Shown here: one piece after another, positions 973 to 26,414 of the stretch
Layout of the letters: the number at the start of each line of letters is the position of its first letter
How positions within the stretch are numbered: position 1 is the first letter of the stretch
Source: a virus
DNA: 32,355 nucleotides
IMG/VR virus record: IMGVR_UViG_3300020469_000155
Location: 1-32,355 of that record
Strand: one strand, 5' to 3'
Notes under the pieces: model-generated
Seen by the model: only the letters and a program-made list of their open reading frames with translations
What the model was told of the DNA's origin: nothing
Database searches by the model: none
Made by a program: the position numbers and the translations under genes

Positions 973-3156
973 ATGGGAGGATCAAGCGCACCACCACCAA
1001 TTCAAGCAAATTACTCGGAAGCTCTTTCAGACTCTCTACGGGCGCAAGTTGACTTGTTGCGCGGAACGGGAGACTTTGAGGATACGGGCGGACTTGCTGA
1101 ATTACTTCGTGAATACGAAGCACCCGTGCGTCAACAAACCGCACAAATTGACACGGATGTTCTCCGTCAGACTTTGCTTGGTACTGAGCGTGAATTTCAA
1201 GTCGAGCAAGACCCTGAAACAGGAAAGTTTGGAATTGCAAATGCAGAGGTTGTAACCGACGAGCAAGGCGAACCACAAACTATAGGTGGTGGTCGGTATC
1301 AGATTGTGCAGACAAGTGCTGGAAGTGAACCTGTTGCAAAGGCTGGCGGTAAGGGTCCAGGTGGTACAGCAGGAGTCAGTCCAACATATAAAATTCTTGA
1401 TACGCAGACTGGGGGAGTCACCGCAACTGTCGGAGGGCAACAGTTTGGGAGTACTAATCCAGTTGCTTCGGCTAAAATGGACCCAGGTTTAAGAGGTTTA
1501 AATCTTGATTCAGCTACTGCTATGGAACTTGAGGAAGTTTCAAAGCAATTCCGTAATCTTGAAAATACAATTACAGAAGCGGGTGGAGATGTGGATGCCG
1601 CGCAGGAAGAAATTGCAAAACAATTTACTTTTGAAAATCCAAACACAGGTGAACCTCTTCGCGAGGGAGAGACAATCACGATCCGCGAAAGCGATGGCAT
1701 GGTTGATTTGCTCGGTGATACCCGAAAAATCGAGCAAACAGTTGCCCAACCCGACTTTGAAGAATATGTTCGCTCAAACCCTGAGTATATGGAAGCAGTT
1801 GCCGCCGACAATTCAATGCGACAATCGCAGGGACTGCCAACTAGAACACTCGCAGAATGGGGGGAAGCTCATTACAATGCATCAGGAAAAGCGGCGGGTG
1901 ATGAAGTACCACAAAAATTTGTACAGGAAACCACGGGCCGTCAGGCAGGATTTGACGAACAGGGAAAATTCCTCGGAAGCGCCGCACTAGCCGAAGACAT
2001 ACAAGCAGGACAACTCTCACGTCAAAGAGAGCGAGACATTTCAGATGTTGAGCGACTGAGCGGACGATTCTCCGACATAATGGAGGACTATAAGCCAACC
2101 ACGACAAGTGGACTTGCCAAAGCGCAGGATGCAATCCTCGCAAGGGGTGATGAATTAATAGGTGATAAAGAAAATGGAGTCACAAGACCAATCACCGAAC
2201 CAACTGCATTGAGTAAAGTTGGTACTGAGCAAAATTATCAAATGATGGGAGAAGCAGGACTTGGGCAAGTAGATAACCAGGACACTCTCAGGCAAGCCCT
2301 TCTCGGACAAGCCAAGTCAGCATTGTCGGATGGATTGACCGCAAGAGAACAGCAACAAATCGAACAAGCTTCACGGGCAAGACAGACTGCGGCTGGAAGA
2401 ATATTTGATCCTACTTCCACCATTCAGGAAGCACAGGCAGTCATCGAGGAGGACCGAAACCGTCAGATGCAGAATCGTGCATTTGCACAGTCCGCGCTCG
2501 GACAGGAAGCGGCCCTTCAAACGGGTGATGTAACAAGAGAGATGACCGCTGATCAATTTGATGTTGGTGCGAAAATGGACGCTCAAAGATTAAACGAGCA
2601 ATTGCGTCAGCAAGGATTGCTCGGATACGTCGATGCAGTTGCCCGAACCGCACAATTGGAAGATCAATACACCCTCGATCCATTTCGTGCGATTCTTGGC
2701 AGAGGTGGGGGAGGCAGTCTAAGCGGCGGTCAGGGAGTGCTGGGAAGTGCGATGTATGGCTTGCAAAGCGGTCCGCAATACCTCAATCCTGAAGCGGGGC
2801 TAGGGTATCAAAGCAACATGTACACGAACCAAGCAAATATGTTTGCCGCACAACAATCGGCTGATGCAAATAGACAGGCAGGATTGTTCGGAGGGCTTGG
2901 TTCGCTTGGCGGTGGAATAGCACAAGGTTTGGGAACCGCAGGTAAGTTGGCAGCGCTTTGTTGGGTCGCTCGCGAAGTTTACGGACCAATGAATCCACAA
3001 TGGTTGATGTTCCGGGAGTGGATGTTCAAGGAATCACCGAAGTGGTTCTTTAATTTGTACATCGAGTACGGTGAACGCTTCGCCAATTGGATAAGCAATA
3101 AACCAAGAATTAAGTCTGTCATCCGCAAGTGGATGGATTCGAAAATAAGAGGATAA
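973..3156 (+). CDS. Putative internal virion / ejection protein with C-terminal CWVAREVYG module (727 aa)
   Basis: A 727-residue protein starting MGGSSAPPP, a Gly/Ala/Pro-rich start common in ejection-type proteins of short-tailed phages. The body is long, Gln/Glu/Ala-rich and largely helical, with repeated RQALLGQ and LRQTLLGTE elements. Near the end, Gly-rich stretches (RGGGGSLSGGQG and GLFGGLGSLGGG) precede a compact C-terminal module of about 65 residues beginning CWVAREVYGPMNPQWL and ending in a basic helix. I know this module as a recurrent tail-end of phage structural proteins. SD AGGAG precedes the ATG. It is the first of three successive large genes resembling the T7 gp14-gp15-gp16 layout; the ejection role is inferred from that arrangement and composition. 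Confidence 0.7.
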   Translation: MGGSSAPPPIQANYSEALSDSLRAQVDLLRGTGDFEDTGGLAELLREYEAPVRQQTAQIDTDVLRQTLLGTEREFQVEQDPETGKFGIANAEVVTDEQGEPQTIGGGRYQIVQTSAGSEPVAKAGGKGPGGTAGVSPTYKILDTQTGGVTATVGGQQFGSTNPVASAKMDPGLRGLNLDSATAMELEEVSKQFRNLENTITEAGGDVDAAQEEIAKQFTFENPNTGEPLREGETITIRESDGMVDLLGDTRKIEQTVAQPDFEEYVRSNPEYMEAVAADNSMRQSQGLPTRTLAEWGEAHYNASGKAAGDEVPQKFVQETTGRQAGFDEQGKFLGSAALAEDIQAGQLSRQRERDISDVERLSGRFSDIMEDYKPTTTSGLAKAQDAILARGDELIGDKENGVTRPITEPTALSKVGTEQNYQMMGEAGLGQVDNQDTLRQALLGQAKSALSDGLTAREQQQIEQASRARQTAAGRIFDPTSTIQEAQAVIEEDRNRQMQNRAFAQSALGQEAALQTGDVTREMTADQFDVGAKMDAQRLNEQLRQQGLLGYVDAVARTAQLEDQYTLDPFRAILGRGGGGSLSGGQGVLGSAMYGLQSGPQYLNPEAGLGYQSNMYTNQANMFAAQQSADANRQAGLFGGLGSLGGGIAQGLGTAGKLAALCWVAREVYGPMNPQWLMFREWMFKESPKWFFNLYIEYGERFANWISNKPRIKSVIRKWMDSKIRG

Positions 3157-3160
3157 TATC

Positions 3161-4612
3161 ATGGCAAGAAGACCATTTTTTTCAGGCAATTACGGATCAT
3201 CACTTGGTTCAACCGCTAATGCGGCAAATCTAATCGCCCAGGCGGGAGCCGCGCAGGGAAAGATGTTTCAGAATTTGGGTTCTGACATTGGCGGGGCAAT
3301 TGAGAAATATGGGTTGAACAAGGAGAAGCGGGCAAAGCTTACCGATAAAATTGAAAATCGCATAAAATTAGACCCAAGCATTGCGCAACGTTTAACAACG
3401 TCAGGTGATGAGGATTATGATAAAAAGAATCTAACACTTATGGAAAAACTGTCTACAGGAGAGCTTGGACTGAAAGGTTTAGAAACTTTGGATAGTGCAA
3501 TGGCAACGATCAGAGAGGTCGATCTCCAAAAACAGCAGGAGCAAGATAGCAATATTAAAACTCAAATGTCTGAGCTTTTGCTCAAAGAACAAAACAATAA
3601 AAATAAAGCTACTGAGGAAGCTTTAAAATTAGCACAAGCAAACAAGTTGTTTGTACAGCAATCTACACAAGGTCTCGTTAGTCGTCTTGCGGGATTGTCA
3701 AAAGATAAGCAAAAAGAAGCATATGACTCTTTTGATCCAACTTCAAAAGAGATGGTTCGAAGAGCCGAGTCTATAATGAGCGGTAATTTTGATCCAAGTA
3801 ATTTTATGCCTACCGCTTCGGAAAGGTTAGGTATGCAATCTGATTTGCTCAAAATAGAAGAACTTCGTGGTAACATCAAGCGTGATGAAGAAGCAAGAAA
3901 AGATCGACAAAAGGCCAGTCAAGCAGGTGTATTTGAAGCACCTCCAAATGCAATGTTTATCAATGAAGATGGACAGGTAGCAAGGGTAGGCACGCCAAGC
4001 GAAAATATTGCTCCACCTGTTGCAAGTCCTGAAACAACACCACCGACGGTTTTCGATCCTGTCGATGCAAAAGCTTTCAGAGGGCAATTCACACCACAGA
4101 TTGTAGACACACTTGATAGAGCATACTCATATTTAACAGGTGAGTCATTACCAGGAACTGATCAAAAAGAAATTAAGAAGCAAATACAGAATTTATCAAC
4201 TATTGGTAATGCGATTACTCCTGTTTTACTTGCGGAATTAGGGGGCAAAGTTACAAATTTAATGATTGAAAGAGTTGAAAAAAATATACCATTAGCAACA
4301 GATAATGTCACAAAAGGTAGGGAAAAAATTGGTCAATTAGTTGATCTCGCAAAGTCACAATTATCGCGCGCTGAAACATTTATAGAAACACTGAATCCAG
4401 GTACACAAGCATACGCTGAAGCATTAGGGGTAAAAAGATTTTTGGAAGTAAATATACCGATGCTTGAGCAGTCAATTGGTGCTGATCGGCCTAGCTTTTC
4501 AGACCCAAGTATAGAGCGTATATTAGGAAATAATAAAAAACCGAATGATTTGCCTATAGTACCTTCAAATCGGTCAAAACTAACCCAAGAGGACTTATTG
4601 AAAATGTTATAA
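3161..4612 (+). CDS. Putative internal virion protein (483 aa)
   Basis: A 483-residue, Lys/Glu/Gln-rich, mostly helical protein. The N-terminus has a Gly/Ala/Asn-rich segment (SGNYGSSLGSTANAAN), then coiled-coil-like helices (about residues 45-175) and a proline-rich linker near residues 275-305 (PPVASPETTPPTVFDP). A second helical domain follows (about 310-450). It begins four bases after the preceding stop with a GAGG Shine-Dalgarno. Placement between two other large helical virion-type proteins suggests an ejected core protein. I do not recognise a specific family and see no enzyme motif. Confidence 0.65.
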   Translation: MARRPFFSGNYGSSLGSTANAANLIAQAGAAQGKMFQNLGSDIGGAIEKYGLNKEKRAKLTDKIENRIKLDPSIAQRLTTSGDEDYDKKNLTLMEKLSTGELGLKGLETLDSAMATIREVDLQKQQEQDSNIKTQMSELLLKEQNNKNKATEEALKLAQANKLFVQQSTQGLVSRLAGLSKDKQKEAYDSFDPTSKEMVRRAESIMSGNFDPSNFMPTASERLGMQSDLLKIEELRGNIKRDEEARKDRQKASQAGVFEAPPNAMFINEDGQVARVGTPSENIAPPVASPETTPPTVFDPVDAKAFRGQFTPQIVDTLDRAYSYLTGESLPGTDQKEIKKQIQNLSTIGNAITPVLLAELGGKVTNLMIERVEKNIPLATDNVTKGREKIGQLVDLAKSQLSRAETFIETLNPGTQAYAEALGVKRFLEVNIPMLEQSIGADRPSFSDPSIERILGNNKKPNDLPIVPSNRSKLTQEDLLKML

Positions 4613-4622
4613 AGGTCAAGGT

Positions 4623-7600
4623 ATGGAAACTCTTACAAACAAACAAGCAATTGCCGAGTTACGAAAAAGGGGTGTGACTGAAACCGAAATAAATTTTCGT
4701 ACAGAAGATAATAAATACAACAGATTAAAAAGTTTTCTTTTTGAAAACGCGGGTCTGCAAGGTGAAGAGGATTATCAAAAAGCTAAAGAAGAATTTAAGA
4801 AAGTTAGTGCTTCAAGGGCTAAACTTTTTGCTGACTTCGAGGCACAAGCGGCAGACGATCCTTCACTAGCGGCTAAAATTGATGCCATTGGAAGAGGTTT
4901 AGTGCAAGGTCCGGCACAACTTTTTGACTTAGGGGTCTCAGGTATACAGGCTGGCTTGGAAACAATTTTGACTGACGAGGGTATGGATTTTGTGGGACGA
5001 GATCCATATAATTTAAGTAAGGCACTGCAGGATGCGGGTCTTGGGTACTATGACTCGCAAAAAAACAAAACACGTGCTTTTGAAAATGTCGAAGAAGGTC
5101 CAAAGAGTTCAATCACAGGCAGACCACAAGCATTTTTGAGCGATATGCCAGCATCAACCCGACCATTTGCGGTCGGAGGTGAAGAGATTGGTCTTGCGGC
5201 TTCAATGTATATGCCTATTGCAATGGCGGCAAGAGGAGCGCAAGGAGCAAAATTAATAGCCCCGCAACTAAAGGAAAACACAAATATACTAGGAACTGCG
5301 ACCAACAAAGTTAAGGATTTAGCAAGCAAGCTTTCCAAAGAAACAGGAATAAGTGGCACTGTTGATGACATGGTAAAATTTGCCGCAAAAAACCCTGCTA
5401 CTTTTGCGAGCGTTGAGGGATCAGTTGCCGCTTTATCGGGTATCGGTGGGGGAGTAGCAGAGTCAATAGCTCCTGGTGATCCAACTGCACGAATGATTGG
5501 CTCAGTGAGCGCGCCCCTTTCAGTTGCTAGTTTGCCAATTTTTGCTGGCAAGTCTTATAAGATTATCAACGGAATGACAGGTGGTCATATTGAAAAAATA
5601 AAAAGAGCAATTGGAATGAAATTGTCGGCTCGAGAAGGTGCAGAAAAGGCTACTGCAAAATTACTGCAAGCTGAAATTACCAAACTTGGTGGAGATTCAA
5701 CCGAACTGGCAAACGCAATTACAAAAATAATAAAAGAAAATCCAAATCTAAAAAAATCACCATTGTCACCGGGTCTTCTTACGGGGGACCAAGGCTTGTT
5801 GGCAATTGAGCGGTCGCTAATTAACAGTGATGCAAAAATATCAAAGGATGCCGCAGAACAAACTAAGAAGTCCATAAACGAAATGAACCGTCTTTTTCGT
5901 GCTTCTGTAAATATTGCTGATGGAGACCCGGAGATTTTACGCATAATATCACAGGCAAGAATAGACCAATTAAATGCGGCCACGGGTTTGCGGGTTAGCC
6001 AAGCTGTGCAAAAACTTAAAAATGCAGAAGCAAATATTAGTGTTCTTGGAACTCCAAATCCACAGGTTGTAAAAGAACAAGCCGCGAAAGATATAAAAAA
6101 AATATTTAATGATACGTATAAAGATTTACGAGCAACTGAGAATCAATTATGGGGTAAAATTGACAAAACTTTACGTCTAAGCGGAACAGAGACTGATTAT
6201 GCATTGATGAAACTTTCCTCAGAAGAAGGTGGATTGGTAGGTATTGAACTACCAAATGTACTAGGTAAGATGCAGGATTTAAAATTTAAACCTAAAGCAG
6301 GAATGTCTTCAGTTTCTTCGGGTGATCTTTTGGAAGCTAGATCACAAATTAGTGCGCAAATCAGAAAATCTTTAAGTGGTGATGCAACATCGCAACAACG
6401 TGATCTTGCAAGAAGATTAATTGAAATAGAAAACGGTATACTTAATGATTTGAACAGTGGTTTGGATCAGACTGTTTCAGCACAATTGGCATTGGCAAAC
6501 GCATCGACACGTAACAGGTATGAGTTTTTAGATATACCAGTTGTAAATAAAATGTTTTCCAAGACTATACAAGGTGGAGAATTATCGAAGCCCGATGTTA
6601 TACTTGACAAAATGTTAATGCCAGGGACTCAAAGCAGTTTTCAAGGATTTAATGACTTAATGAAAGCTGGAGCAAGAGGTAATTATCTTAAAGATATGCA
6701 AAATCCATTGGCAAAATTTTATTATGCAATGGCAAATCAGACAGTAAATCCAAATGGTGAAGTTGATTTGACGGCCCTCGGTGGATTTTTAAAGAAACAC
6801 GAAAATGGACTTAAAGCACTTGGTATCTACGACAATTTGCAGAACCCAAAAATTCAAGCTCATTTGGTCAAGCGTTTGCAAAATTCAACTTCGCAAATGC
6901 AAACAAAATTTAATTCAAAATCTATGGCAAGTAAAGTGATAGGGGTTGATGCTACCACTATGCCAACATTTTTTGCAAGCATACTAAAATCTCCAAATAG
7001 AGGTGCAGATTTAAGAAGATTACGAAATTTGTCTCTAAAGAAAGTAAAAGGAGTAGATAATCGTGAAGCAATTGATGGAATCAGATCAAGTATTGTTGAA
7101 AATCTTTTTAAAGAAAGTACGGTCCCATATAGTGCTACGGGAATTACAGAAGAATCCACAGAACTGATGCTAGGTCAAAAACTGCGACAGCAATTGGATG
7201 CCAAGCAGGGTAAAAACACATTACGCGACGATCTCGTCAATAGTGGGCTTTTTTCAAAGGAGGAAATCTCAGGAATTGATCAAATGTCAAAAAGAGCAGA
7301 CGAATTTGCCGCATCAGTGGTACAAAGAACCGAAGGTGCAACTTTGCCAAATGTGCCACCAGGTTCAGATTTTCTTGTCGATATAGTTGGAAGACTCGCT
7401 GGATCGACAGTTGCAATGGCGAGTCCATTTGGTCAAAATTTAGGCCACGATTTAATCATAGCACAAATAGGCTCGAAAGCAGGAAAGAATTTGTTGGATA
7501 AGATGCCGACCCTCAAGCTGAAAGAAATTTTAGTGGAAGCAATGCAGGATAAAGTTCTGATGAAAGCTTTATTGGAAAAAGATATTGGTGGTGCATCTAC

Positions 7601-7937
7601 AAAATCAAGAAATTTAAAACTTGGAGCCTTACTTGCAATGAAAGGCATAATTGGTGAAGATGAGGTTTATGCAATTGAAGACAATGACGGTATGACTGAA
7701 GCACTTGAAAGTGCAATTGGGCAACTTGCAAGAGAGGGAAACAGTGCTTCGGATATCATGAAAAAATTTGAAATAGAGGCTCGCAGAGAAGGCACAACAG
7801 TGGGACCATACAAACTCGATCAAGTGCAATCTCTACTCGGAATGAGTTTTGAGGACAGAGCGTCAGTTGTAAAAAACCTAGAAGTTAAAAAGCAAGGTCA
7901 GTATAGACTCAGCCGCAGACCCGCCAAGCGTAAATAG
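4623..7937 (+). CDS. Very large putative internal virion / DNA-ejection protein (1104 aa)
   Basis: The longest gene in the window. It is mostly helical, with hydrophobic Gly/Ala-rich segments in the first third. One is at about residues 187-215 (EEIGLAASMYMPIAMAARG); another at about 260-315 contains AALSGIGGGVAESIAPG and SAPLSVASLPIFAG. Such segments are typical of large podovirus proteins that leave the capsid and help form a conduit across the cell envelope (T7 gp16-like role), but no lytic transglycosylase motif was identified. The C-terminus ends in basic residues (RLSRRPAKRK). An AAGG site precedes the ATG, and the gene is the last before a strong terminator. Confidence 0.65.
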   Translation: METLTNKQAIAELRKRGVTETEINFRTEDNKYNRLKSFLFENAGLQGEEDYQKAKEEFKKVSASRAKLFADFEAQAADDPSLAAKIDAIGRGLVQGPAQLFDLGVSGIQAGLETILTDEGMDFVGRDPYNLSKALQDAGLGYYDSQKNKTRAFENVEEGPKSSITGRPQAFLSDMPASTRPFAVGGEEIGLAASMYMPIAMAARGAQGAKLIAPQLKENTNILGTATNKVKDLASKLSKETGISGTVDDMVKFAAKNPATFASVEGSVAALSGIGGGVAESIAPGDPTARMIGSVSAPLSVASLPIFAGKSYKIINGMTGGHIEKIKRAIGMKLSAREGAEKATAKLLQAEITKLGGDSTELANAITKIIKENPNLKKSPLSPGLLTGDQGLLAIERSLINSDAKISKDAAEQTKKSINEMNRLFRASVNIADGDPEILRIISQARIDQLNAATGLRVSQAVQKLKNAEANISVLGTPNPQVVKEQAAKDIKKIFNDTYKDLRATENQLWGKIDKTLRLSGTETDYALMKLSSEEGGLVGIELPNVLGKMQDLKFKPKAGMSSVSSGDLLEARSQISAQIRKSLSGDATSQQRDLARRLIEIENGILNDLNSGLDQTVSAQLALANASTRNRYEFLDIPVVNKMFSKTIQGGELSKPDVILDKMLMPGTQSSFQGFNDLMKAGARGNYLKDMQNPLAKFYYAMANQTVNPNGEVDLTALGGFLKKHENGLKALGIYDNLQNPKIQAHLVKRLQNSTSQMQTKFNSKSMASKVIGVDATTMPTFFASILKSPNRGADLRRLRNLSLKKVKGVDNREAIDGIRSSIVENLFKESTVPYSATGITEESTELMLGQKLRQQLDAKQGKNTLRDDLVNSGLFSKEEISGIDQMSKRADEFAASVVQRTEGATLPNVPPGSDFLVDIVGRLAGSTVAMASPFGQNLGHDLIIAQIGSKAGKNLLDKMPTLKLKEILVEAMQDKVLMKALLEKDIGGASTKSRNLKLGALLAMKGIIGEDEVYAIEDNDGMTEALESAIGQLAREGNSASDIMKKFEIEARREGTTVGPYKLDQVQSLLGMSFEDRASVVKNLEVKKQGQYRLSRRPAKRK

Positions 7938-17471: not shown

Positions 17472-17888
17472 TTATCGTGTAAACACGCCCCAGTCCTCAC
17501 GGAACTTTTCGTGCTTTGCCTTGGAGTCCGGGTTGTGTGGATACAGGGATATTCTAATTGCACTGTCTATGGCGAGTAATGGAATGAGATACCAGGTTGG
17601 CAATTTTTCGACATAAGCGGCGAGTACATCCACCTTGGTTGGATCAATTGATTGTTTAGCGGATGATCCACTAGCGGTGGTAATCATATATCTGCCCAAT
17701 CCTCCCCGTGATTTATCATGTACTTTATCAGCGGTTCCTTTGATTTGTACTTTATAGGACCGCCCTGCCTGGTTCATTACTAAGCAGTCCTGTGGAAGAT
17801 AGTCTCCGAGCGGGATGAATACTTCGAGGTTTCGCTCAAGAGCTTCAGTGAAGAATATTTGCTCGTATATATTACCCTTTCTTTTCAT
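17472..17888 (-). CDS. PD-(D/E)XK family endonuclease-like protein (138 aa)
   Basis: A 138-residue protein resembling the PD-(D/E)XK group found in small endonucleases. KGNIYEQIFFTEAL gives the early Glu, VFIPLGDYLPQDCLV gives the catalytic Asp, and YKVQIKGTA gives a Q-x-K version of the E-x-K pair. The mid-region GRYMITTASG and the strand LPTWYLIPLLAI fit the rest of the fold. It overlaps the upstream gene by 17 bp and is transcribed with it. Roles of relatives vary (restriction, homing, DNA repair). The Gln in place of Glu may alter activity. Confidence 0.7.
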   Translation of the reverse strand: MKRKGNIYEQIFFTEALERNLEVFIPLGDYLPQDCLVMNQAGRSYKVQIKGTADKVHDKSRGGLGRYMITTASGSSAKQSIDPTKVDVLAAYVEKLPTWYLIPLLAIDSAIRISLYPHNPDSKAKHEKFREDWGVFTR

Positions 17889-18354
17889 CAACCACTATAG
17901 TTTCAGCATTCTTTGCATTCCCCTTGAGTATTGAGCGTACTTTATCGGGTGACATATCTGACGCGCCGAGTTTGACTGATGCATTGGCGGTAATATTGGT
18001 TGGTCTTCCTGAGATGGTCATGAATTTATCGAACAGCATACCCACGGCATAGGCTTTATTTTGCGGGGGTATTTTATCAATTGAGTCATGTAGATCATTG
18101 AGAGAATCCGTGACCATATGCTGCAGTTTTTTGGACACTGCGTTGAGAAATTCCTGCTCGGTCATTTCCATGCCGTACTTCATGGCATTTTGTATTCTCA
18201 GTCTGCTTTCTTCCTGCCGTGAGGAAAGGACAATATTTTCACATTCCTGTTTATGGGTGGATGTTTTGGATGCTATCTTTGCGGCGGAAGTGATAATTTT
18301 ATCCTTCAGCTTGGCATCGAAGGCATTGAGTTTTTTGGGTATCCCTCTTGGCAT
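17872..18354 (-). CDS. Hypothetical protein, possible small-terminase-like (160 aa)
   Basis: A 160-residue protein starting MPRGIPKKLNAFDAKLKD, with a basic N-terminus, a long charged helical region (TEQEFLNAVSKKLQHMV) and a C-terminal block KIPPQNKAYAVGMLFDKFM followed by SGRPTNI. The latter resembles a segment of phage small-terminase-like proteins (proline, then G-x-L-x-DK, then G-x-PT). A TATAAA box ten bases upstream of ATG would leave almost no leader. It is divergent from the HTH gene and on the strand opposite to the large terminase, which is unusual, so the assignment is tentative. Confidence 0.5.
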   Translation of the reverse strand: MPRGIPKKLNAFDAKLKDKIITSAAKIASKTSTHKQECENIVLSSRQEESRLRIQNAMKYGMEMTEQEFLNAVSKKLQHMVTDSLNDLHDSIDKIPPQNKAYAVGMLFDKFMTISGRPTNITANASVKLGASDMSPDKVRSILKGNAKNAETIVVDEKKG

Positions 18355-18413: not shown

Positions 18414-18854
18414 GTGGCTATAAAGATGACTGGCAAACAGGCGATGAAGATACTGAAGGAAGCGGGTATTTCACGGGATGAATTTGCGGGAATTATGGGC
18501 ATTAAATGCAGTACTATGCGTACTTGTTTATATGGAAACCGAGTATCTGCGAAGATGGTGGTTAAATTGAGCGAGCTTGCGGGTGAGGAGATTGAAAAGC
18601 GCGAGATTGCAGATGTGGATGAAATGATTGAGGAAGTGATTGCACCAATCAAGGAGGTGGAGAAGCGAGTTGAACAGGCGGAGGAATTAATTGGTCGTGT
18701 ATATTTGAAACCGAGAAATCCCTATCGCTATGATGTTGAATTTGCGGATGGCAGTCATGGCTGGTTTCGCGCAAAGCCAAACAGTTATTTTATAGGTGAT
18801 GAGGTACGTCTTAGAAAAGCGGATCGTGGATGGGAGGTTGTGCGATGTGGATAA
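18414..18854 (+). CDS. HTH regulator with C-terminal small beta-barrel (146 aa)
   Basis: A 146-residue protein. Residues about 5-50 are a helix-turn-helix of the antitoxin/Cro type (QAMKILKEAGISRDEFAGIM and CSTMRTCLYGNRVS). A coiled coil follows (about 60-95, IEEVIAPIKEVEKRVEQAEE), then a beta-rich end (YRYDVEFADGSHGWF, GDEVRLRKADRGWEV) like a small OB/KOW barrel. GTG 18414 has AAGGA five bases upstream; ATG 18426 is a weaker alternative. Its stop overlaps the methyltransferase start by 8 bp, so a controlling role over that gene is plausible but inferred. Confidence 0.65.
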   Translation: MAIKMTGKQAMKILKEAGISRDEFAGIMGIKCSTMRTCLYGNRVSAKMVVKLSELAGEEIEKREIADVDEMIEEVIAPIKEVEKRVEQAEELIGRVYLKPRNPYRYDVEFADGSHGWFRAKPNSYFIGDEVRLRKADRGWEVVRCG

Positions 18855-20166
18855 TCCCCAAAACATTATCAGCTTTTGTACCGGCTACGGAGGGATTGAG
18901 CTTGGACTTAGAAGAGCGGGCGTGGATGTTAGAGTCATCTGCAATGTGGAGATCGAAGCCTTCGTCCAAGCCAACCTGGTTGCGAAGATTGAAGAAGGGA
19001 GGATGGATAACGCACCTATCTTCTCGGATCTTAAAACCTTCCCTGCATCAATCTTTCGAGGAAAAATTTGTGGACTCATTGGAGGATATCCATGCCAGCC
19101 ATTCAGTAGCGCAGGGAAGCGACAAGGAGCAAAAGACCCAAGACACTTGTGGCCATATATCCGAAAGCACATCCGGGCAATTAGACCTGTTTGGTGCTTT
19201 TGGGAAAATGTCGCAGGACACACCACGATGGGGCTATGGCGAGTCCTGTCCGATTTGGAAGAAGATGGTTACCGATGCGCGTGGGGCATATTCAGCGCGG
19301 AAGAAGTTGGCGCTCCACACCAAAGGAAACGAGTGTTCATCTTGGCCTACCGCGAGTGCGAGGGATCACAAGGGTGGATATACGGGGGGCAGAATAAGGA
19401 ACGGGAAAGTGTCGATGGATACTCTCGATGTGGCGGTACAGGCACACACGGACGGAGGGATTCTGAGCAAGTGGGCAACACCACAAGCCTCCGACCACGT
19501 GGAGGGAGCGAGAACTGCGAAGGAGAGCAATCAGAAGTGCTTGGGGAGAGACTTGAATCAGATGGAGAATTGGCCCACCCCGACAGGCACGGAAAGGAGC
19601 GGGACGAACCCGCAGACGGGCAAGGGGCATGGACTCAGCAAAGCAGCGAAGATGAACTGGCCCACCCCGCGAGCCGGGAACCCCGGCAGTCGCAAGCCTG
19701 GAACGGGGGGGAAGATATTGGCGGAGGAAGCGAAGAAGAATTGGGGAACTCCGGCATCGAACGATGCGAACAAGACTCCGCATTGCGAGATAAACAGCAA
19801 GCAAGGGGGGTTGAGCAAGTCTGTAGGGATCGAGGAAGCGAAGAAGAATTGGGGGACACCGCAAGCGAGGGATTGGAAGGGCGCGCAGGGGAGGGCGTAC
19901 AAGGGGGGAGCGAAGGACTTGCCTGCGCAGACGGAGGGAGTGCCACCACACAATGGCCTGCAAGACCAGGAGAAGAGCAATACGAGTGGGAAGAACCACG
20001 GGTCACCGAAGCTCAATCCGAATTGGTGCGAACAACTGCAAGGCCTCGAAGTGGGGTGGACCCAATTACCAACCGAGTGGATCGGCTCCGACTCTTAGGA
20101 AATGGTGTTGTCCCCCAAACAGCAGAACTAGCATGGAAGACTTTATGGAAGGAAATGAACCAATGA
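18847..20166 (+). CDS. C5 cytosine-specific DNA methyltransferase (frame 1), overprinted by a second gene
   Basis: A 439-residue enzyme that transfers a methyl group from S-adenosylmethionine to cytosine C5. Motif I is FCTGYGG (residues 10-16), motif IV is GGYPCQPFSSAG with catalytic Cys83, motif VI is ENV (120-122), motif VIII is HQRKR (158-162) and motif X is GNGVVP (about 418-423). Between VIII and X lies a roughly 250-residue, Gly/Glu/Ser-rich, low-hydrophobic insertion with repeated ELAHP, ELGN and ELGD units. That is where the target-recognition domain normally sits. I chose GTG 18847 (GGGAGG nine bases upstream); an ATG at 18796 adds 17 residues. No cognate restriction gene is certain, so it may be orphan and protect phage DNA. 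Confidence 0.88.
   Translation: MDNPQNIISFCTGYGGIELGLRRAGVDVRVICNVEIEAFVQANLVAKIEEGRMDNAPIFSDLKTFPASIFRGKICGLIGGYPCQPFSSAGKRQGAKDPRHLWPYIRKHIRAIRPVWCFWENVAGHTTMGLWRVLSDLEEDGYRCAWGIFSAEEVGAPHQRKRVFILAYRECEGSQGWIYGGQNKERESVDGYSRCGGTGTHGRRDSEQVGNTTSLRPRGGSENCEGEQSEVLGERLESDGELAHPDRHGKERDEPADGQGAWTQQSSEDELAHPASREPRQSQAWNGGEDIGGGSEEELGNSGIERCEQDSALRDKQQARGVEQVCRDRGSEEELGDTASEGLEGRAGEGVQGGSEGLACADGGSATTQWPARPGEEQYEWEEPRVTEAQSELVRTTARPRSGVDPITNRVDRLRLLGNGVVPQTAELAWKTLWKEMNQ
19070..20098 (+). CDS. Overprinted WPTP-repeat protein (frame 2), inside the methyltransferase gene
   Basis: A 342-residue reading frame entirely inside the methyltransferase gene. GTG 19070 has GAGG eight bases upstream and gives VDSLEDIHASHSVAQG. 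Next come KTQDTCGH, LDLFGAFGKMSQDT and ARGAYSARKKLALHT. Six units follow: SWPTASARDHKGG, KWATPQASDHVEG, NWPTPTGTERSG, NWPTPRAGNPG, NWGTPASNDANK and NWGTPQARDWKG. The end is KLNPNWCEQLQGLEVGWTQL. I recognise this overall pattern from phage proteins lying beside or over C5 methyltransferases; their function is unknown to me. A longer frame reaches ATG 18830. The region is T-poor, which by itself keeps frames open, so the motif pattern is the main evidence. Confidence 0.7.
   Translation: MDSLEDIHASHSVAQGSDKEQKTQDTCGHISESTSGQLDLFGAFGKMSQDTPRWGYGESCPIWKKMVTDARGAYSARKKLALHTKGNECSSWPTASARDHKGGYTGGRIRNGKVSMDTLDVAVQAHTDGGILSKWATPQASDHVEGARTAKESNQKCLGRDLNQMENWPTPTGTERSGTNPQTGKGHGLSKAAKMNWPTPRAGNPGSRKPGTGGKILAEEAKKNWGTPASNDANKTPHCEINSKQGGLSKSVGIEEAKKNWGTPQARDWKGAQGRAYKGGAKDLPAQTEGVPPHNGLQDQEKSNTSGKNHGSPKLNPNWCEQLQGLEVGWTQLPTEWIGSDS
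19724..19854 (+). repeat. 23-bp direct repeat within the overprint
   Basis: GAGGAAGCGAAGAAGAATTG plus GGG occurs at 19724-19746 and again at 19832-19854. It encodes EEELG in frame 1 and EEAKKNWG in frame 2, so the repeat unit is dual-coding and suggests the insertion grew by local duplication. Confidence 0.85.
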
Positions 20167-21042: not shown

Positions 21043-21489
21043 ATGAGAACCAGGTACGAGACTCAGCATGATCTTGATAATGAAAATGAAATTGCTGACT
21101 TCTTGGAAAAGGAGTGGGGATGTGAGTTTATAAAACTCGATCCTGTAAAGTGGAAAGTGGATTACTTGATTAGATCGATAAAAAACAAAGGCAAGTATGC
21201 ATGGTGTGAGATCAAGCGGGCAAATATAAACTTTGGTCAGTATTTATTTATGATCAGTTATAAGAAGATCGAAGCCGCCAAGGCACTGTATGAAACTTCG
21301 GGTCAAAATTTCATGCTTATTTTTCGATGCAAGGATGTATTGTGCTATCATACATGGGACTTTAAAAAGAAGTACAAATTTGAATATTCGGGACGAACAA
21401 TGACAACACGGGACAGTCATGATATTGAGCCTGTGTTTCGGATCGAGCCGGATGAGTGCGTCAAGCTCAACAAGTTTAATAATGCGTAA
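21043..21489 (+). CDS. Second PD-(D/E)XK-like nuclease (148 aa)
   Basis: A 148-residue protein (HDLDNENEIADFLEKEWGCE) with the pattern D-x(n)-E-x-K. The N-terminal helix supplies Glu, KVDYLIRSI supplies Asp, and YAWCEIKRANI supplies the Glu and Lys. The following FGQYLFMISYKKIEAAKALY matches a conserved strand-helix pair of small phage nucleases. It sits after the methyltransferase and four small genes, and could be the partner of a restriction system or a recombination enzyme. Family recognised by eye, substrate unknown. Confidence 0.6.
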   Translation: MRTRYETQHDLDNENEIADFLEKEWGCEFIKLDPVKWKVDYLIRSIKNKGKYAWCEIKRANINFGQYLFMISYKKIEAAKALYETSGQNFMLIFRCKDVLCYHTWDFKKKYKFEYSGRTMTTRDSHDIEPVFRIEPDECVKLNKFNNA

Positions 21490-25748: not shown

Positions 25749-26414
25749 ATGTCGTACCTCATCGCCAATATCCCCCAGTTTAAGTGCTGGGTTCGCAAAG
25801 AGTTTACTCACAATCACATGAAGTACGAAGGAGAATATATACATGCTTTGGTAATTGCGGTCTGCGCGATTCCTGACCGATGCCTGTCTTTTCAAGTTGT
25901 ATTCACTGGTTGCGATGAGGATGACCCAAACCCTCACGGGGGGGCGATGTGGGCGAGAATGCCAATAACCGCTTTAATTGCAGATGTACCTTACGAAGAA
26001 TGGCCCGAAAAATGCCCCACCCATATCGCACAACCTTGGGACTGTCCATCCCGCGACATAGCAGTCACCAAGCTCGACCGTGTAAGTTCAAGCCCGTGGA
26101 TTGCAAAGATTGACGGAAAGTTTTACAAGGCAATTTATTATTTCACGGTTGATTTCACGGGCAACTCAATTGCCGATGATCCCGCCCAGCACAAGCAAAG
26201 TCACATCCTTGAATTGACCGAGGGTCCGTGGAAGGGACAGATTATAGCCCTTCCAAACAACCGCGTTCGTGTAACGAACCCCGCTTTGTGGTTAGTCGGA
26301 GAAGGAGCGCCTGACTTCGTGCCAAGTCAATATTTACACTCTGCTGAAAAGCACGACAGTTACACTGATTGGCGCGCAACATTTGATAACCTCTATGCTG
26401 ATGAAGACAAATGA
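25749..26414 (+). CDS. Conserved phage protein of unknown function (221 aa)
   Basis: A 221-residue protein (FKCWVRKEFTHNHMKYEGEY then IHALVIAVCAIPDRCLSFQV) that I associate with a widespread head-module family in marine phages. It has strands with conserved Trp/Tyr, PHGGAMWARMPITALI, and a C-terminus with EGAPDFVPSQYLHS. No catalytic motif seen. It follows the tiny peptide without gap and its end overlaps the next gene by 4 bp (ATGA). Probably virion-associated. Confidence 0.7.
   Translation: MSYLIANIPQFKCWVRKEFTHNHMKYEGEYIHALVIAVCAIPDRCLSFQVVFTGCDEDDPNPHGGAMWARMPITALIADVPYEEWPEKCPTHIAQPWDCPSRDIAVTKLDRVSSSPWIAKIDGKFYKAIYYFTVDFTGNSIADDPAQHKQSHILELTEGPWKGQIIALPNNRVRVTNPALWLVGEGAPDFVPSQYLHSAEKHDSYTDWRATFDNLYADEDK

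Follow-up and report, generated by a model that had tools for sequence, protein, structure and literature searches.

Two reading frames at the methyltransferase locus

The window, by which we mean the whole 32,355-base virus record that was analysed, contains matches to an integrase, exonuclease VIII, a DnaB-like helicase, a terminase (weak) and a major head protein, so the record would appear to be a temperate tailed phage or a part of one. It carries a gene for the large subunit of a C5 cytosine methyltransferase (hereafter alpha), whose frame is open already from a GTG at 18796, and nested with it in the +1 frame a second gene (hereafter beta), whose frame is open from 18797 to 20098 and spans nearly the entire alpha gene (Table 1). 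The initial annotation had drawn attention to two open frames over the same DNA, and both are indeed present, as are the base-for-base match of their repeat units (ELAHP in frame 1, GAATTGGCCCACCCC, is NWPTP in frame 2) and the frame-2 ending LNPNWCEQLQGLEVGWTQL.

Alpha matches the C5 methyltransferase model PF00145 with E=4e-32 over residues 23-189 (P0002), that is, over motifs I-VIII only, and is placed in that family by an AdoMet-binding motif I, the catalytic PCQ of motif IV, the ENV of motif VI and a motif VIII. Against TIGR00675 its score lies under that model's cut-off, and the matches of HaeIII and HhaI to alpha end at motif VIII. In these comparisons with Pfam, TIGR, HaeIII and HhaI, motif IX and the recognition domain expected in monomeric C5 enzymes are absent from the alpha chain: beyond motif VIII there follow about 230 codons without matches, and then motif X. 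PCQ, ENV and LGNxV are invariant in our alignment of alphas (A1).

Beta begins with an N-terminal region and a hairpin core; six W[PGA]T[PA] cassettes in tandem follow, and after these a putative motif-IX equivalent. No Pfam or NCBIfam model matched it. All 35 betas of a second alignment (A4), on the other hand, match PHROG 1008, which is labelled 'DNA methyltransferase'.

Table 1. Features of the alpha and beta genes, in positions of the window
Feature	Position	Strand	Remarks
Shared ribosome-binding site GGGAGG (18832-18837) and overlapping double start ATGTG	18832..18849	+	Beta ATG 18845, alpha GTG 18847, one-base overlap
Beta, nested small subunit	18845..20098	+	ATG start, 417 aa; +1 frame; phrog_1008 'DNA methyltransferase', E=2e-29
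Alpha, C5 cytosine methyltransferase large subunit	18847..20166	+	GTG start, 439 aa; motifs I-VIII and X, without motif IX
Catalytic segment, motifs I-VIII	18862..19362	+	Frame 1; Pfam match residues 23-189; frame-1 third positions change fastest
Cassette 1, WPTASARDHKGGYTGGRIRNGKVSMDTLDVAVQ...	19343..19471	+	82% identical to a cassette of Salmonella phage L002, alphas 33% identical
Cassette 2, WATPQASDHVEGARTAKESNQKCLGRDLNQMEN	19472..19570	+	12 related cassettes, those listed 94-100% identical; differences mainly at frame-2 third positions
Cassette 3, WPTPTGTERSGTNPQTGKGHGLSKAAKMN	19571..19657	+	Protein identical in L006; 10/10 nucleotide differences at frame-2 third positions
Cassette 4, WPTPRAGNPGSRKPGTGGKILAEEAKKN	19658..19741	+	11 related cassettes; 83-98% nucleotide identity
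Cassette 5, WGTPASNDANKTPHCEINSKQGGLSKSVGIEEAKKN	19742..19849	+	Matches the final cassette of L007 at 97% identity
Cassette 6, WGTPQARDWKGAQGRAYKGGAKDLPAQTE, plus linker	19850..20011	+	Last in the window, first in L006 (93% identical)
Putative motif-IX equivalent, LNPNWCEQLQGLEVGWTQL	20012..20068	+	Frame 2; aligned to canonical motif IX
Motif X, RVDRLRLLGNGVVPQTAELAWKTL	20074..20145	+	Frame 1; invariant R430 and L434-N436 (A1); frame-1 third positions again fastest

Both frames are constrained

When the codons of frame 1 were shuffled synonymously in 5000 trials, the +1 frame stayed open for 170 codons on average and for 399 at most, against 416 observed (p=0.0002), which is more than chance and upholds the earlier view that the overlapping gene is real; the +2 frame of the window was unremarkable in the same shuffling. 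The result was similar in each of 18 diverse homologues, with p between 0.001 and 0.016 for the +1 frame and, again, nothing remarkable in the +2 frame.

Stop codons tell the same story from both sides, where the counts, like those of substitutions below, are descriptive, as the loci share ancestry. The +1 frame of 60 alpha-selected loci holds 3 stops against 120 expected, and their +2 frame 462 against 458. Conversely, the alpha frame across the cassettes of 138 distinct loci, nearly all of them beta-selected, holds 17 stops where 575 would be expected given the beta protein and the codons that it uses, while the third frame of the same loci has 828 against 801. As a control, 69 loci of single-chain viral C5 methyltransferases gave 704 stops against 709 expected, i.e. 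no effect; unlike the locus of the window, these enzymes are without a +1 signal. Stops are thus avoided reciprocally, and each of the two frames is under constraint.

Pairwise comparison of related viral loci further showed which frame dominates where. Substitutions at frame-1 codon positions 1, 2 and 3 amount to 0.21, 0.14 and 0.30 in the catalytic part, 0.19, 0.08 and 0.09 in the cassette region, and 0.16, 0.06 and 0.37 at motif X. The variable codon position accordingly switches, from the third position of frame 1 in the catalytic part and motif X to the third position of frame 2 in the cassette region, which makes frame 2 the coding frame of the insertion and frame 1 that of its flanks. 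A sliding window located the switch at about 19,340-19,430, and through 19,426-19,900 only some 1-10% of first and second positions of frame 2 change. Lack of constraint on frame 2 had been named in the initial annotation as an outcome that would tell against the overlapping gene; substitutions and stop counts both show frame 2 to be constrained.

Start of the nested gene

In loci of the window lineage, the double start RTGTG offers beta an ATG or GTG and alpha a GTG two bases downstream. The longer string RTGTGGATA is kept in nearly all loci of this lineage that reach that far upstream, usually with a purine-rich site before it. The best start for beta is the ATG at 18845. A GTG at 19070 had originally been put forward as the start of frame 2, and we abandon it here: it is not conserved, T or L stands at that place in most relatives, and the frame is open from 18797.

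The extent of beta is also reflected in alpha. In the window lineage, alpha shows synonymous change at third positions of 0.24 over motifs I-III and of 0.45 at motif X. By the same measure the Paenibacillus phage lineage, in which frame 2 is closed upstream of motif IV, has 0.52 before motif IV, 0.23-0.32 across motifs IV-VIII and 0.59 at motif X. In other words, synonymous change in alpha is approximately halved where beta overlaps, and the places differ between the two lineages; beta therefore appears to be translated from well upstream of the cassettes, with starts that differ by lineage. Taken together with the conserved double start, this favours separate initiation of the two genes over frameshifting.

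Cassettes are exchanged between betas

When 120 betas were cut at W[PGA..]T[PA], 354 units with a median length of 38 aa resulted, from one to six per beta (13 of the 120 have a single one). These fall into 23 families of at least three members, the largest of which (72 units) was formed by single-linkage clustering and contains a mixture of types. Members of one family turn up in genes with alphas only 25-40% identical, and cassettes resembling cassette 1 of the window are also visible in N15, SEN4, S9a and ESSI2. Within the lineage, cassettes 2 and 4 retain 83-98% nucleotide identity, and most of the differences lie at third positions of frame 2. Cassette 6 stands last in the window and first in L006, and the order has therefore changed. 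Altogether, cassettes have been gained, lost and reordered as modules and are common to distant genes.

Tandem interchangeable modules ahead of motif IX are a property of multispecific phage C5 enzymes and are present here in beta. The exchange is as expected if the cassettes are exchangeable target-recognition domains, a role that they would have by analogy with those enzymes. Two betas (L047 and L140) have a second motif-IX-like stretch within the cassette array (TNPALLEWLMGYEQEF and TNPELLEWMMGYQRAF), perhaps the trace of a duplication.

Motif IX, motif X and the fold of beta

The end of beta follows the pattern LNPxWVE(W/Q)LMG(F/L)PxGW, or LNPxWVExLMGxPxGW in shorter form. A profile of beta aligned with the C-terminal halves of single-chain phage C5 enzymes only at their motif IX (RKLTPKECWRLQGFPDW), with P=0.0045 and a probability of 7.7%, a weak homology at the sequence level, and in a fusion search the end motif fell on HhaI 247-289, in the same register and non-significantly. 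When an artificial alpha-beta-X fusion was compared with Pfam, the C5 model was not extended into beta and nothing was gained over alpha alone; the beta profile found chance matches only (RpoD) among PDB sequences. AlphaFold models of beta alone, made for a one-cassette beta and for that of the window, reached mean pLDDT values of 59 and 50, too poor for identification of a fold, which would be unsurprising for a domain that folds together with a partner.

At two loci (L132, 4771-6000, and L185) the recognition region, motif IX and motif X all lie in the beta frame, an AquI-like layout in which the genes still overlap. Motif X can therefore sit on either chain, as would be expected of two halves of one enzyme.

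Distribution and annotation

Among the alpha-selected loci, a nested beta accompanies alpha in all 74 with a usable alpha ORF (61 by the strict pattern and 13 on inspection), and no methyltransferase relative lacking the open frame 2, which the initial annotation would also have counted against the overlapping gene, was found among these 74. A genome scan by beta, from which the best 80 of 430 confirmed relatives were retained, placed beta at +1 in 71 of 73 distinct loci, the others being one frame-changed variant and one locus without the alpha part. Recurrence of the arrangement in phages, which had been suspected at the outset, is borne out. It was also seen in 20 viral loci close to the window and in 45 near a Paenibacillus phage beta. 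Together with the scan, these sets place the arrangement in Bacillota, Pseudomonadota, Bacteroidota, Nitrospirota, Acidobacteriota, Planctomycetes and others, with a large share of MAGs, and it is found in coliphage N15 (gp58), BcepC6B (gp33), SEN4, eiAU, Haboob, Lc-Nu (ORF40), mycobacteriophage Spikelee (gp77) and E. coli prophages. Three loci (L038, L057 and L140) were considered as same-frame fusions and rejected as such, since their frame changes shift alpha and beta together; these changes are either natural mutations or sequencing errors.

Annotation mostly records alpha alone, and in one case (Salmonella phage L002) beta alone. The nested gene has been annotated as 'Mte8-like' in coliphage K1ind2, and as gp56 'g55 internal gene' in Paenibacillus phage Shelly and its relatives.

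Alpha and beta as probable halves of one methyltransferase

The motif content of the two chains appears complementary. Alpha is without motif IX and beta seems to supply an equivalent, which leads us to read the two frames as halves of one enzyme: alpha (catalysis) and beta (target recognition and motif IX) very probably make up a single C5 cytosine methyltransferase encoded in overlapping frames. Alpha would bind AdoMet and contribute the catalytic PCQ and ENV as well as motif X, with a polar linker between motifs VIII and X, and beta would be a small domain made up of a conserved core, motif IX and, between them, six target-recognition cassettes open to exchange. Assembled, the two chains would form a methyltransferase for several sequences, with roughly one target to each cassette, and a temperate phage could use it to protect its DNA by methylation from several host restriction systems; cassettes would be gained, lost or reordered by recombination. 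Against this reading stand the weak sequence homology of motif IX, a Pfam C5 model that stops short of beta, the poor models of beta alone and the published placement of the recognition domain of M.EcoHK31I in its large subunit. The frame-2 product had been suggested to be an accessory, an inhibitor or a specificity partner of the enzyme. A specificity partner fits, but an unrelated accessory on a complete enzyme does not, given that frame 1 is without motif IX and frame 2 has a putative equivalent.

We also think it likely that the locus exemplifies a class of multispecific C5 enzymes that extends across the bacteria and is carried mainly by phages. The whole specificity repertoire of this class would reside in a +1-frame subunit hidden in the catalytic gene, and its cassettes would be swapped as DNA modules open in two frames. 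In the window lineage the genes of this class are almost co-extensive, with overlapping starts, and many genes annotated as 'DNA cytosine methyltransferase' would be half-enzymes.

A variant of this reading, possible though rather unlikely, keeps the split enzyme and lets one cassette or the whole array set the specificity, the other units being spacers or decayed copies; it is a weaker form of the best explanation, and its likelihood overlaps with that of the latter. Such a variant would accommodate the one-cassette betas and the cassettes without assigned targets. Related loci, however, preserve individual cassettes well in frame 2, and the intact recurrence of cassettes in distant hosts is unexpected for spacers.

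Programmed frameshifting could instead produce a single chain, if ribosomes left frame 1 for frame 2 downstream of motif VIII and returned to it ahead of motif X. The parts would then follow in single-chain order (motifs I-VIII, recognition region, IX, X), and some variants (L132 and L185) do join parts in one frame. We nevertheless regard frameshifting as very improbable: constraint on beta is already seen far ahead of any point at which ribosomes could shift (in the window lineage opposite motifs I-III, in that of the Paenibacillus phages opposite IV-VIII), beta has a conserved start of its own in the window lineage, alpha is kept open through the cassettes (17 stops where 575 were expected), which would be needless for a shift into frame 2, and M.EcoHK31I consists of two polypeptides.

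It is hard to credit, too, that beta is a separate protein, an inhibitor or regulator of a complete alpha whose overlap is incidental, even if the lack of a Pfam or NCBIfam match and of an identifiable fold in the AlphaFold models would agree with it. Alpha is without motif IX, and over its VIII-X region the other frame is the better conserved of the two; beta accompanies every usable alpha checked (74/74), cassette exchange fits target recognition, and motif X can be on either chain. Lastly, that frame 2 is a chance open frame arising from G+C-rich repeats in a methyltransferase gene is refuted, for although codon bias by itself yields a rather open +1 frame (about 170 codons on average in the simulation), it does not account for the window (p=0.0002), the 3 stops in place of 120 at 60 loci, the switch of the variable codon position or the absence of any effect in single-chain enzymes.

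Comparison with known systems

The split enzyme proposed here, alpha with beta, invites comparison with M.EcoHK31I, the small gene of which was reportedly placed inside the large one, in another frame, in a 1995 paper. The window is alike in this respect, its beta gene overlapping alpha in the +1 frame. M.EcoHK31I (YGGCCR) is a two-polypeptide C5 enzyme with motifs I-VIII and X on the large subunit and motif IX on the small one (PMC3404938), and the alpha of the window likewise carries I-VIII and X and not IX, a likeness to the published description. The M.EcoHK31I sequence (X82231) was not among the E. coli matches inspected. The predicted recognition domain of M.EcoHK31I was assigned to the large subunit (PMC3404938). 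Unlike in M.EcoHK31I, which was described as a single enzyme, the recognition cassettes here appear in beta, in arrays of one to six and in phages and prophages; these findings suggest a recognition domain in the small subunit, at least at this locus type. M.AquI (CYCGRG) also consists of two polypeptides, the second of which has motifs IX and X (PMC3404938), but in the window motif X is on alpha, and we saw the AquI layout only in L132 and L185.

The C5 enzymes of Bacillus phages carry TRD arrays and are multispecific (PMC12707154, PMC8936443). Like those of SPR, SPbeta, phi3T and H2, the enzyme of the window would have tandem target-recognition domains in a variable region; whereas those enzymes are one polypeptide from one frame, its modules lie in a separate beta subunit in the +1 frame. 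Type I HsdM and HsdS likewise separate catalysis from a swappable specificity subunit, by analogy only, as these enzymes are unrelated and their genes adjacent.

PHROG 1008, 'Mte8-like' of K1ind2 and gp56 of Shelly are beta proteins as well, and we found no account that treats these betas as the specificity half of a split enzyme or describes their cassettes, and no paper on a widespread nested beta. The initial annotation had supposed a recurrent, undescribed overlapping-gene system; recurrent it is, but 'undescribed' goes too far, as M.EcoHK31I is a split C5 enzyme already on record and the betas are gathered in PHROG 1008. With nesting known from one enzyme and TRD arrays from Bacillus phages, it is the combination and its breadth that appear to be unrecorded.

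If the proposal is right, a familiar phage and prophage annotation denotes half an enzyme, and the part that chooses the sequence is missing from most records examined. This would help to explain orphan phage methyltransferases without an assignable target. It would also put right where the recognition domain lies in split C5 enzymes, and methylomes could then be used to read the specificities of a whole catalogue of natural cassettes. The locus would also be a case of long-lived dual coding in which a modular domain evolves by exchanging cassettes without closing the other frame, and constraint can be measured on each of the two at more than 100 loci.

Other genes in the window

Two PD-(D/E)XK proteins are encoded near the methyltransferase. 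One, an endonuclease matching PDDEXK_5 (E=6e-14), lies at 17472-17891 on the minus strand, about 1 kb upstream of the methyltransferase and opposite in strand to it; the other, at 21043-21489 (+) downstream of the methyltransferase, matches PDDEXK_14, a phage putative endonuclease (E=9e-18). Three large proteins of 727, 483 and 1104 aa, without a PHROG match, are encoded at 973-7937 (+). The gene at 25749-26414 (+) has no Pfam match, and its product matches PHROG 3704, labelled ferredoxin (E=8e-29).
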